Notes under the pieces: model-generated | Told to the model about the DNA's origin: nothing | The model's input: the letters and a program-made list of their open reading frames with translations, nothing else | Databases searched by the model: none | Origin: Deltaproteobacteria bacterium | GTDB lineage: Bacteria > Desulfobacterota > Deferrimicrobia > Deferrimicrobiales > Deferrimicrobiaceae | NCBI GenBank assembly: GCA_030668225.1 | Contig: DAOUUI010000008.1 | Location: 1-33,496 of the forward strand | Reading direction: 5' to 3' | DNA: 33,496 bases | In this document: positions 25,902-30,117 of the stretch, in pieces | Layout: every line of letters begins with the position of its first letter | How positions within the stretch are numbered: position 1 is the stretch's first letter | Made by a program: the position numbers and the translations under genes

Positions 25902-26795
<894 letters not shown>

Positions 26796-26801
26796 GCGAC
26801 C

Positions 26802-26826
26802 GTGGAAGTCATCACGACCCACTTCA
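26802..26826 (+). repeat. Displaced 5' end of the DHH fusion gene (left copy of imperfect direct repeat)
   Basis: These 25 bases match 27484-27508, the start of the DHH fusion gene, at 21 of 25 positions. The left copy begins GTG and reads V-E-V-I-T-T-H-F; the right begins ATG and reads M-D-V-I-T-T-H-I. Differences fall at the start-codon base, two third positions (one synonymous) and one substitution. GGGGG 9 bases upstream could serve as its Shine-Dalgarno, six bases after the xer stop. It now leads only to a 39-codon frame. Confidence 0.7.
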
Positions 26827-26853
26827 CATCCTTTCATTATCAAGGGGAGAACT

Positions 26854-27366
26854 ATGAATTGGTTTGTTTGGCTCTTTCTGTTTTTCGTTTTGATGTTTAT
26901 CGTTTTGGACAGGTACGGTAGAAAATACAATCCAACGATGTTTCCCCGGAAAGACCTTTCTCCCGGAACCGACCCGATCATGATCAAAGGAAACGGGGAG
27001 TATCAGTTGGAGGTAGTCGTGGAATCCCGCTATCAGGACGCGCTTGAGGAGATATGCGGCCCCCGCACCGATGAGGGGGTAGAAAAAACTGCAATTGCAA
27101 CGATCGTATTCGAGGACGACAACCCCAAGGATAACCTCGCTGTGAGGATCGACATCGAGGGGAAAACAGTCGGACATCTCAGTAAACCTTTTGCCCGACT
27201 CATTCGGGAGACAATGGCGGAAAAGGGGTACGCAGGTGTTACCAGGAATTGTGCCGCGATGATACGCGGGGGATGGGATCGCGGGAAAGGTGACAAGGGA
27301 AATTTCGGAGTCAGGCTCGACTTCCCGCTGTACGATTCAAAAAAAGGAGAGCGGCCCCCCGGTTGA
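26854..27366 (+). CDS. Membrane-anchored HIRAN-like protein
   Basis: 170 residues, ATG after AGGGGAGAACT. An N-terminal hydrophobic helix (residues 3-18, WFVWLFLFFVLMFIVL) is followed by a basic stretch (DRYGRKYNP), giving an anchor with the rest probably in the cytoplasm. Residues 50-120 (EYQLEVVVESRYQDAL, then IVFEDDNPKDNLAVRIDIEG and KTVGHLSK) resemble HIRAN-type small beta-barrels, which bind DNA ends or occur in unknown roles. The tail has GGWDRGKGDKGNFGVRLDFP. The HIRAN match is by eye. AT-richer codon use than its neighbours, and its place between the split copies of the next gene's start, suggest it arrived by transfer. Confidence 0.65.
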   Translation: MNWFVWLFLFFVLMFIVLDRYGRKYNPTMFPRKDLSPGTDPIMIKGNGEYQLEVVVESRYQDALEEICGPRTDEGVEKTAIATIVFEDDNPKDNLAVRIDIEGKTVGHLSKPFARLIRETMAEKGYAGVTRNCAAMIRGGWDRGKGDKGNFGVRLDFPLYDSKKGERPPG

Positions 27367-27448
27367 GCCGACAACCGGAGTACTGCGCAACGATAGGCTA
27401 TTTTAAGTCCAGTCCTGTCAGAGAATGTCGAAAAAAGAAGATAGCGAC

Positions 27449-27477
27449 TTGTAACGTGTCGTAAAATCAAGTACTTT
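27449..27477 (+). promoter_or_regulatory. Candidate promoter placing the transcript start at the DHH gene ATG
   Basis: TTGTAA (27449-27454), exactly 17 bases, TACTTT (27472-27477). Seven bases beyond the -10 is the A of the ATG at 27484. No Shine-Dalgarno-like sequence lies before that ATG, so the mRNA may be leaderless. The -10 match is modest (3/6). Confidence 0.35.
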
Positions 27478-27483
27478 TTACTT

Positions 27484-30117
27484 ATGGACGTCATAACGAC
27501 CCACATCAACGCGGACTTCGACACGATCGGCTCCATGCTGGCGGCCCGCAAACTTTACCCGAATGCCGTCCTGGTGCTCCCGGGCTCGAAGGAGGAGACG
27601 GTGAAGGGGTTCCTCCTCCAGTCGGCCCTCTACGCGCTCGAGATGAAGAAGCTCCGGGAAATCGACCTGTCGAAGGTGACCCGGCTGATCCTCGTCGACA
27701 TCCGGAACTCCTCGCGGATCGGCCCTTTCCGGGCCCTGATCGGCAAGCCCGGCGTGGACGTCCACGTCTACGACCACCACCCGGAAGAAGATGCCGACAT
27801 CCGCGGCAGCGTGGAGGTGATCAAAAACGTCGGCTCGACGACGACGATCCTCGTGGAGATCCTGAAAGAGCGGCAGATCCCGATCACGTCGGACGAGGCC
27901 ACGGTGATGATGCTCGGGATCTACGAGGACACGGGGTCGCTCTCCTTTCCCTCGACCACGGTCGAGGACTACCTGGCCGCGGCGCACCTGAAAAGTTGCG
28001 GGGCCAACCTCGGATCGGTGGCGGACATCCTCGCCAAGGATTTCACCGCGGAGCAGATCTCTCTCCTGTACGACCTCATCCAGGGGTCGAAGGCGTACAC
28101 CATCCACGGCGTCGAGGTGGTCATCGCGGAGGCCCGCCGGGAGCAGTACGTGGGGGACCTTGCCGTCCTCGTCCACAAGCTGCGCGACATGGAGGCGGTA
28201 AGCGTCCTGTTCGCCGTCTGCCAGATGGGGGACCGCGTCGTGCTCGTTGCCCGGAGCCGCAAGCCCGAGGTGGACGCCGGGGCGCTGATGCGCGAGTTCG
28301 GCGGCGGCGGGCACCACTACGCGGCATCTGCCACCGTCAAGAACGCCACGATCTTCCAGGTCCGGGAGAGGATCCTGCACACGCTCGCCGAGAAGATCAT
28401 CCCGCGGCGCACCGCGGCCGACCTCATGGCCTCCCCCGTCCGCCACGGTTTAGTCGAGAACACGATGACCGACATCCACTATCTCCTCACCCGCTACAAC
28501 ATCAACGTCGTGCCGATATTCCGGAAGGAAGAGCCCGTCGGCATCATCACGAGGCAGATCGTAGAAAAGGCGCTATTTCATGGACTTGGAAGCGAAAGTG
28601 TCGAGGAATACATGAACACCGATTTCGACACCATCGGGCCGCAGGAAGGGATCGAGCGAGTCCAGGAGATCATCATCGGGAAGAACCAGCGGCTGATCCC
28701 GGTCGTCTCGGACGGCAAGGTGACGGGAATCATCACCCGGACCGGGTTCCTGCGGTTCCTCCACGACGTAAGGGACGTGGTGCAGCCGGGCCCCGAGGAC
28801 GACATCCCCGCCGAAGGGTTGCTCGCCCGGAAGAAGCTCATCCACAACCTGATGCAGGAGCTCCTCCCGGTACGGGTGTTCGACCTGCTGGCCGGGGCGG
28901 GGGAGGTGGCGGAGCGGCTCGGCATGAAGGCCTACGTCGTCGGGGGGTTCGTGCGGGATCTCGTCATGCGACACCACAACACCGACGCCGACATCGTGGT
29001 CGAGGGGGACGGGATCGCCTTCGCGGAGGCTTTCTCGCAGGAGTACCCGTGCCGGGTGCGCCCTCACCACAAGTTCGGCACGGCGGTCCTCGTCTTCCCG
29101 GACGGCTACAAGGTCGACGTCGCCACGGCCCGGGTGGAGTACTACCGGGAGCCGGCGGCCCTGCCCACCGTGGAGTACAGCAGCCTGAAGCTCGACCTGT
29201 ACCGCCGGGACTTCACCATCAACACCCTGGCCGTGCGCCTGAACCCCGGCGTGTTCGGGGAGTTGATCGACTTCTTCGGGGCCCAGCGCGACATCAAGGA
29301 AAGGGTGCTGCGCATCCTGCACTCCCTGTCCTTTGTCGAGGACCCGTCCCGAATCCTTCGGGCCATGCGGTTCGAGCGCCGTTTCGGGTTCGCCATCGGG
29401 CGGCACACCCAGAACCTCATCCGCAACACCGTCCGCCTCGATCTGATCGAGAGGCTGCCCAAGCCCAGGCTCTTCAGCGAACTGGAGCTGATCCTGAAGG
29501 AGGAGGAGCCCGTCGGAATCCTGAAAAGGCTTGCCTCCTTCGGCATCGGCCCCTCCATCCACCCGAAGATCACCCTGGACAAGGCCCAGATCGCCCTGCT
29601 GGAGGAGACCTCCGAGATCCTCGTCTGGTTCTCCCTCCTCTTCCTGGAGGAGAAAGTGGAGAGGTGGGCGGTCCTGTTTCTGTCGCTTCTCAACCCCCTG
29701 TCCCCCGAGGAGGCGAAAAAGTTCGCCGCCGTCCTGGGGGTCGGACGATGGCTTCGGGGATGGGTCCGCTACGCCAAGGACGATGCGACCGACATCACCC
29801 ACCGGCTCCTGTCCGCGCGGGTCGTTTCCCGAAAGTTCGTCTACGACTGCCTGAGCCCGCTTCCGAACGAGGTAATCCTTTACCTCATGGCAAAGGCAAA
29901 AAACAACGATATTAAAAGATATATTTCCCTCTATTTCACGCAGCTCAAGTACGTGCGGCCGATTTCCACGGGGAGGGACCTCCAGGCACTCGGATACCCG
30001 CCCGGCCCCCTCTACAAGGAGATCCTGGACGAGATTCTCGAAAGGAAGTTCGTGGGGGAACTGCGCACGAAGGCGGACGAGACGTCGTTTGTCCTTTCGC
30101 ACTTCCCGAAATCGTAA
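27484..30117 (+). CDS. DHH phosphoesterase - CBS - CBS - tRNA nucleotidyltransferase/poly(A) polymerase fusion
   Basis: 877 residues. DHH domain: HINADFDTIGS (7-17), Asp72 in LVDIRNS, DHH at 97-99 and YEDTG (147-151). DHHA1 follows with GGGGHHYAAS from about 273. Two CBS domains lie at about 313-370 and 374-430, possibly sensing adenine nucleotides. The C-terminal half is a class II polymerase-beta-type nucleotidyltransferase: AYVVGGFVRDLV (483-494), DAD catalytic Asps, RRDFTINTLA, then the RNA-binding helices. All active-site motifs for both halves are present. The C-terminal half is probably an A-adding or CCA-adding enzyme or poly(A) polymerase; the DHH half may hydrolyse short RNA or cyclic dinucleotides. 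Similar fusions are known in Geobacter-like bacteria. Its 5' end is duplicated upstream. Confidence 0.9.
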   Translation: MDVITTHINADFDTIGSMLAARKLYPNAVLVLPGSKEETVKGFLLQSALYALEMKKLREIDLSKVTRLILVDIRNSSRIGPFRALIGKPGVDVHVYDHHPEEDADIRGSVEVIKNVGSTTTILVEILKERQIPITSDEATVMMLGIYEDTGSLSFPSTTVEDYLAAAHLKSCGANLGSVADILAKDFTAEQISLLYDLIQGSKAYTIHGVEVVIAEARREQYVGDLAVLVHKLRDMEAVSVLFAVCQMGDRVVLVARSRKPEVDAGALMREFGGGGHHYAASATVKNATIFQVRERILHTLAEKIIPRRTAADLMASPVRHGLVENTMTDIHYLLTRYNINVVPIFRKEEPVGIITRQIVEKALFHGLGSESVEEYMNTDFDTIGPQEGIERVQEIIIGKNQRLIPVVSDGKVTGIITRTGFLRFLHDVRDVVQPGPEDDIPAEGLLARKKLIHNLMQELLPVRVFDLLAGAGEVAERLGMKAYVVGGFVRDLVMRHHNTDADIVVEGDGIAFAEAFSQEYPCRVRPHHKFGTAVLVFPDGYKVDVATARVEYYREPAALPTVEYSSLKLDLYRRDFTINTLAVRLNPGVFGELIDFFGAQRDIKERVLRILHSLSFVEDPSRILRAMRFERRFGFAIGRHTQNLIRNTVRLDLIERLPKPRLFSELELILKEEEPVGILKRLASFGIGPSIHPKITLDKAQIALLEETSEILVWFSLLFLEEKVERWAVLFLSLLNPLSPEEAKKFAAVLGVGRWLRGWVRYAKDDATDITHRLLSARVVSRKFVYDCLSPLPNEVILYLMAKAKNNDIKRYISLYFTQLKYVRPISTGRDLQALGYPPGPLYKEILDEILERKFVGELRTKADETSFVLSHFPKS

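Follow-up and report, generated by a model that had tools for sequence, protein, structure and literature searches.

Relationship to known elements at gene starts

Most integrative elements use the 3' ends of genes, and 5' ends are rarer targets (PMC5704250). The elements described at gene starts include those that dusA integrases direct to the 5' end of dusA, prophages among them (PMC4482086), as well as IMEVchUSA3, for which the supply of a new N-terminus and promoter to dusA has been measured, and SXT, which provides prfC with a new start and promoter (PMC8409611). Decayed elements that have kept attL and attR are known as CIMEs (PMC5704250), and Dehalococcoides carries integrase-less islands at ssrA (PMC3146451).

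Here we analysed a stretch of 33,496 nucleotides from a deltaproteobacterial assembly (contig DAOUUI010000008.1; here called the window), in which 682 bases are inserted at the start of a gene for a putative A-adding tRNA nucleotidyltransferase. The whole case is based on one genome in a fragmented assembly. The anatomy of the locus resembles that of an attL/attR-flanked element supplying a new gene start, as seen at the 5' ends of dusA and prfC. Like the dusA elements (prophages, IMEVchUSA3, and its relatives; PMC4482086 and PMC8409611), the insert lies in the first codons of a gene for a tRNA-acting enzyme and supplies a new N-terminus. However, SGI1-like islands in dusA are 23 to 37 kb long and dusA elements have a dedicated integrase, whereas the present insert is 0.7 kb, has no integrase, and occupies another gene. 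The SXT/R391 ICEs in the 5' end of prfC (PMC8409611, PMC4542580) likewise give their target gene a new start (and there a promoter) but, unlike the present insert, are conjugative elements of 79 to 110 kb with int and xis. CIMEs (PMC5704250) and the Dehalococcoides ssrA islands (PMC3146451) share with it the attL/attR-like ends, the lack of integration genes, and a content of cargo only. These usually occupy gene 3' ends or tRNA or tmRNA genes and lie next to, or derive from, a known element, whereas no parent element is known here. The locus thus appears to be an arrangement of known kind, with a target gene that is new and a form that is unusually small and lacks an integrase.

Genes flanking the insertion

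The gene upstream of the insertion (nucleotides 25902 to 26795, forward strand) encodes a XerD-type tyrosine recombinase that scores above the cut-off of TIGR02225. It was considered as the element's own integrase and rejected, as it is a host gene outside the insert and is found in the same place in genomes G003, G004, and G009, which lack the insert. In genomes G001 and G002, xer is a divergent allele, with ~70% protein identity to the xer product of the window, versus 77% to 92% for neighbouring genes. The target gene (27484 to 30117, forward strand) is predicted to encode a fusion protein with Pfam domains DHH, DHHA1, CBS, and PolyA_pol. Its product aligns over the full length of NF041569 (1026 bits, residues 1 to 870, E = 0), which is below the cut-off of 1440; the domain order is the same, suggesting an enzyme of the A-adding tRNA nucleotidyltransferase type whose equivalence the score does not certify.

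The start of the target gene occurs twice

A previous reading made from the sequence alone had pointed out that the start of the gene at 27484 recurs at 26802, and this was confirmed. The left copy (26802-26826, forward strand; GTGGAAGTCATCACGACCCACTTCA) and the right copy (27484-27508, forward strand; ATGGACGTCATAACGACCCACATCA) match in 21 of 25 positions and are 682 bases apart. As also described in that reading, the left copy begins 6 nt downstream of the xer stop codon (26793-26795) and is directly preceded by GGGGG, and no Shine-Dalgarno sequence could be read ahead of the right copy. The longest exact stretch common to both copies is a 9-base core, ACGACCCAC, located at 26814 to 26822 in the left copy and at 27496 to 27504 in the right copy (both forward strand). 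The switch from host to foreign sequence comes directly after the left core, and the replacement N-terminus is in frame, reading MDVITTH in place of VEVITTH.

The start stretch was found at these two places only when the 2.1-Mb assembly was scanned with up to three mismatches allowed. With the start anchored, a 25-mer match of this quality would be expected ~2e-5 times per 5 kb and, over both strands of the whole genome, 0.015 times. Among 179 candidate starts compared in the window, the pair ranked best, with 4 mismatches, the runner-up having 6. Unanchored all-against-all comparison of the 3-kb flanks gave 18 to 19 matches in 22 positions commonly by chance, so the repeat alone is unconvincing. 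Its significance comes from position: both copies are at start codons, and the left one is exactly where relatives have their native start. No core inverted repeats and no arm sites for an integrase were apparent.

Relatives carry an empty site

The sequence-only reading had predicted an empty site, with xer followed directly by the native start and the body of the DHH gene, and such sites were found in three relatives, two of the same genus (G003 and G004) and one of another genus in the same family (G009). In all three, the xer stop codon is followed by 7 bases and then by GTGGAAGTCATCACCACCCACATCAAC or a near form of it, leading straight into the gene body; the start itself is GTGGAAGTC in G003 and G004 and GTGGACGTC in G009. 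When the left flank of the window through CAC is joined to the right flank from ATCAAC, the empty-site arrangement is restored, with 110, 105, and 99 matches in 121 positions to G003, G004, and G009, respectively. Because relatives show the empty site, the left copy is taken as the native start and the insertion as derived. By these comparisons, the inserted segment is the 682 bp that separate the copies (26823 to 27504, forward strand; its exact ends are ambiguous within the core), and of the native start only the first seven codons remain at the left. The proposal that something had inserted at the 5' end of a conserved gene, leaving the native start behind, is therefore supported by all three relatives.

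The same genomes indicate which copy is foreign. The seven codons of the left, attL-like copy (26802 to 26822, forward strand) are identical to the intact starts of G003, G004, and G009 in 20, 19, and 20 of 21 positions, respectively, whereas those of the right, attR-like copy (27484 to 27504, forward strand) match in 17, 16, and 19. As the left copy agrees better with the relatives, the foreign copy would be the one joining the gene. This is consistent with the idea of a replacement start brought in by the insert, the right copy being the one that departs from the xer-linked relatives. From codon 8, immediately after ACGACCCAC, the gene body is genus-typical and as close to the relatives as are the rest of the gene and the neighbouring genes, with no divergent tract seen in comparison with the genus. 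This confines the difference to the left of the core, which is what an attachment arm would produce. In the wider family, natural starts of the target gene often have ATG or GAC, and ATA alone is unusual. Apart from ATA, the right copy could thus be an ordinary gene start, which keeps alive an explanation by gene exchange (see below).

The insert and its expression signals

The insert has a GC content of 0.49, compared to 0.63 for the window, and contains one gene only, whose third-position GC (0.60) is lower than that of the target gene (0.89). No recombinase, integrase, or other integration or transfer gene was found in the 682 bp. The cargo gene (26854 to 27366, forward strand) is preceded by a Shine-Dalgarno-like AGGGGAG (26843 to 26849, forward strand). 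The native start opens a remnant frame that runs 39 codons into the insert and over the start of the cargo gene (26802 to 26921, forward strand; translation, VEVITTHFTSFHYQGENYELVCLALSVFRFDVYRFGQVR and a stop). A hairpin, CCGGTTG-AGCCGA-CAACCGG, without a T run, spans the stop codon of the cargo gene (27359 to 27378, forward strand). The Rfam search returned nothing.

Shortly before the ATG of the right copy, the insert carries a possible weak promoter for the target gene (TTGTAA, 17 nt, TACTTT; 27450 to 27483, forward strand). Its spacing resembles that of the TTTGAC..CATACT found before the ATG of monocistronic family copies of the gene. A supplied promoter with a leaderless start is a guess, since a consensus scan gave no match and the layout is only similar to that of the family copies. 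Of the claim that the insert provides a replacement start plus promoter, the start was thus upheld and the promoter is at present conjecture. Five loci in which the target gene is not behind xer (L007, L008, L009, L012, and L013) share a conserved TTTGAC..(C)ATACT 7 to 9 nt before the ATG and have no visible Shine-Dalgarno sequence, suggesting leaderless transcripts.

The cargo is a HIRAN protein of the kind found in phages

The cargo gene product (170 amino acids) is predicted to contain an N-terminal membrane helix and a HIRAN domain, in agreement with the HIRAN-like membrane protein proposed from the sequence alone. The single sequence matched the Pfam HIRAN model below the cut-off (E = 0.0046), and a six-sequence profile of the family matched the HIRAN chains of HLTF with an E-value of 3e-5. 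The predicted fold has a mean pLDDT of 74.6, and its twelve best PDB matches are all HLTF HIRAN, with modest TM-scores and E-values just above 0.001. By profile and predicted fold, the protein is assigned to the HIRAN family. It shares this domain with human HLTF (PDB 4xzg, 4s0n, and 6kcs) but is a small protein with an N-terminal membrane helix and no helicase.

The insert and its protein are single copy in their own genome, and the protein or its relatives occur in 3 of the 395 genomes of the phylum, including its own, the other two being distant matches. No close relative was found in viral contigs or in one genome per GTDB species. The combination of a membrane helix and HIRAN is also present in a Nostoc phage and in five IMG/VR contigs, and HIRAN relatives are present in thirteen diverse bacterial genomes. 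Because relatives with the same layout occur in phages and are nearly absent from its own phylum, the cargo is, on the strength of these comparisons, a phage-associated gene. In one of the IMG/VR contigs (L092, 2893 to 3348), the small membrane-HIRAN gene has a tape-measure gene on one side and a gene for a Rha-type regulator on the other and is read from the opposite strand, a placement that a moron gene would be expected to have. The direct repeats that flank other HIRAN genes did not exceed chance quality. Larger HIRAN proteins (L060 of G394, 378 to 2983; L061 of G242, 213 to 2992) adjoin HNH-like and HicA-like genes or a KAP-like P-loop ATPase, as judged by eye, a setting that looks defence-like.

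Origin of the insertion

Each end of the insert thus bears a copy of a direct repeat, the right one completing the target gene. Relatives show the empty site, the start has been replaced, and the insert contains a single cargo gene of phage type and no recombinase. We consider it probable that the 682 bp are an integrated foreign element, either a remnant or a CIME-like, cargo-only form, that is flanked by attL and attR and was placed by site-specific recombination. The recombinase, which we infer to have come from outside the insert, was probably a tyrosine integrase of phage type, either lost since or supplied in trans. The site of the element would have recombined with the first codons of the target gene across the nine shared bases, leaving the native start beside xer as a dead end. 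The arm of the element would have given the substitute start (ATG GAC GTC ATA) and probably also a promoter, so that the target gene would stay intact and continue to be expressed. The cargo gene, with its own Shine-Dalgarno sequence, would now lie within the xer transcription unit. The absent recombinase fits a decayed element that kept attL and attR, as in CIMEs, which have lost integration and transfer genes, and in the integrase-less ssrA islands. If the insert were excised, the head-to-tail circle junction is predicted to read ...TTTACTTATGGACGTCATAACGACCCACTTCACATCC.... 

Were the attachment-site reading true, a further gene whose product acts on tRNA would follow tRNA genes and dusA as an attachment gene and join the short list of 5'-end targets. 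The locus would also show how small a start-replacing insert can be, and it would place small membrane-anchored HIRAN proteins in a mobile context associated with phages.

Gene exchange is a possible but unlikely source of the arrangement. A neighbour of the same genus would have carried the gene start together with the HIRAN gene and a promoter, and this unit entered by homologous recombination in the gene body, while the left end was joined by chance microhomology and seven native codons were left. The right copy does resemble a natural start, with ATGGAC in G001 and GTGGACGTCATCACGACCCAC in G009; family copies away from xer have the promoter-like TTTGAC..CATACT just before the ATG, a layout like that of the right end of the insert; and codons 1 to 80 are marginally closer to G001 than to G003. 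However, a HIRAN gene precedes the target gene in no other genome among the 395, and the left break, which is in the same register as the shared core, would be a coincidence. Moreover, the gene body shows no donor tract, although a donor from within the genus would be hard to see.

We regard as improbable a duplication in situ, in which ~25 bases of the native start were directly repeated during insertion by a staggered break or by transposition, with later drift of the two copies. Two copies in direct orientation with 21 of 25 matches would suit it, and the 10% to 17% divergence between species would allow such drift. The dead copy should have drifted no less than the functional one, but the unconstrained left copy has no private change in 21 positions relative to close relatives, and the functional right copy has three (ATG, GAC, and ATA). 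The previous view that the copies are not a plain recent target-site duplication is supported. In addition, a 25-base target duplication is unusual, and the insert has neither a transposase nor terminal inverted repeats.

An artefact of the fragmented assembly (266 contigs) is hardly credible: although contigs of G002 end at the same junction (the xer contig at about residue 274 and the gene contig starting from codon 14), which could reflect variation there, the longest run of identity between the two copies is 9 bases, which is too short for a join by shared k-mers, and both flanks are in correct synteny with relatives.

Search for other elements at the same site

Under the preferred reading of an att-flanked foreign element, the same site might be occupied elsewhere. 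The start pattern was matched in 140 of the 395 genomes of the phylum, and no second element was found at the start of the target gene in any of the 395; second copies of the pattern in G044 and G110 were coincidences within other genes. No IMG/VR contig carries the target gene, and the degenerate start pattern, used there to find attP candidates, gave seven matches, all in unrelated sequence. No element to whose attL and attR the two copies could be compared was found at this site in the 395 genomes or in IMG/VR. The search for HIRAN genes at the same gene start, proposed with the sequence-only reading, was run on the 395 genomes and gave no further case. A dedicated family of mobile elements with this target was not borne out, given the lack of a recombinase in the insert, of a second case in the genomes, and of the target gene in IMG/VR. 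We consider it distinctly improbable that the insert represents a class of miniature elements of <1 kb, each consisting of one cargo gene of phage type plus a mimic of the target start, which an unlinked recombinase would move in trans using this start as the attachment site. The statement that no named element has this target agrees with our literature search, in which no paper was found that describes integration at an A-adding tRNA nucleotidyltransferase gene; the dusA and prfC elements already illustrate the principle (PMC8409611, PMC4482086).

Other phage-type integrases are present elsewhere in the genome, and nothing ties them to the insertion site. A phage-type integrase of 409 amino acids (L077, G000:C243, 51 to 1362) lies directly beside a tRNA-Ala (GGC) gene and likely belongs to a separate integrated element. 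In G001 (L004, contig C1), the gap between xer and the target gene is 278 nt and contains a different small ORF of ~80 amino acids with one membrane helix and no left copy of the start. In G020 (L016, contig C27), the gap is ~1170 nt and contains, as judged by eye, a Doc/Fic-type toxin gene and a small upstream partner, with no duplication of the start; from this locus, the junction between xer and the target gene looks like a settling spot for small insertions.
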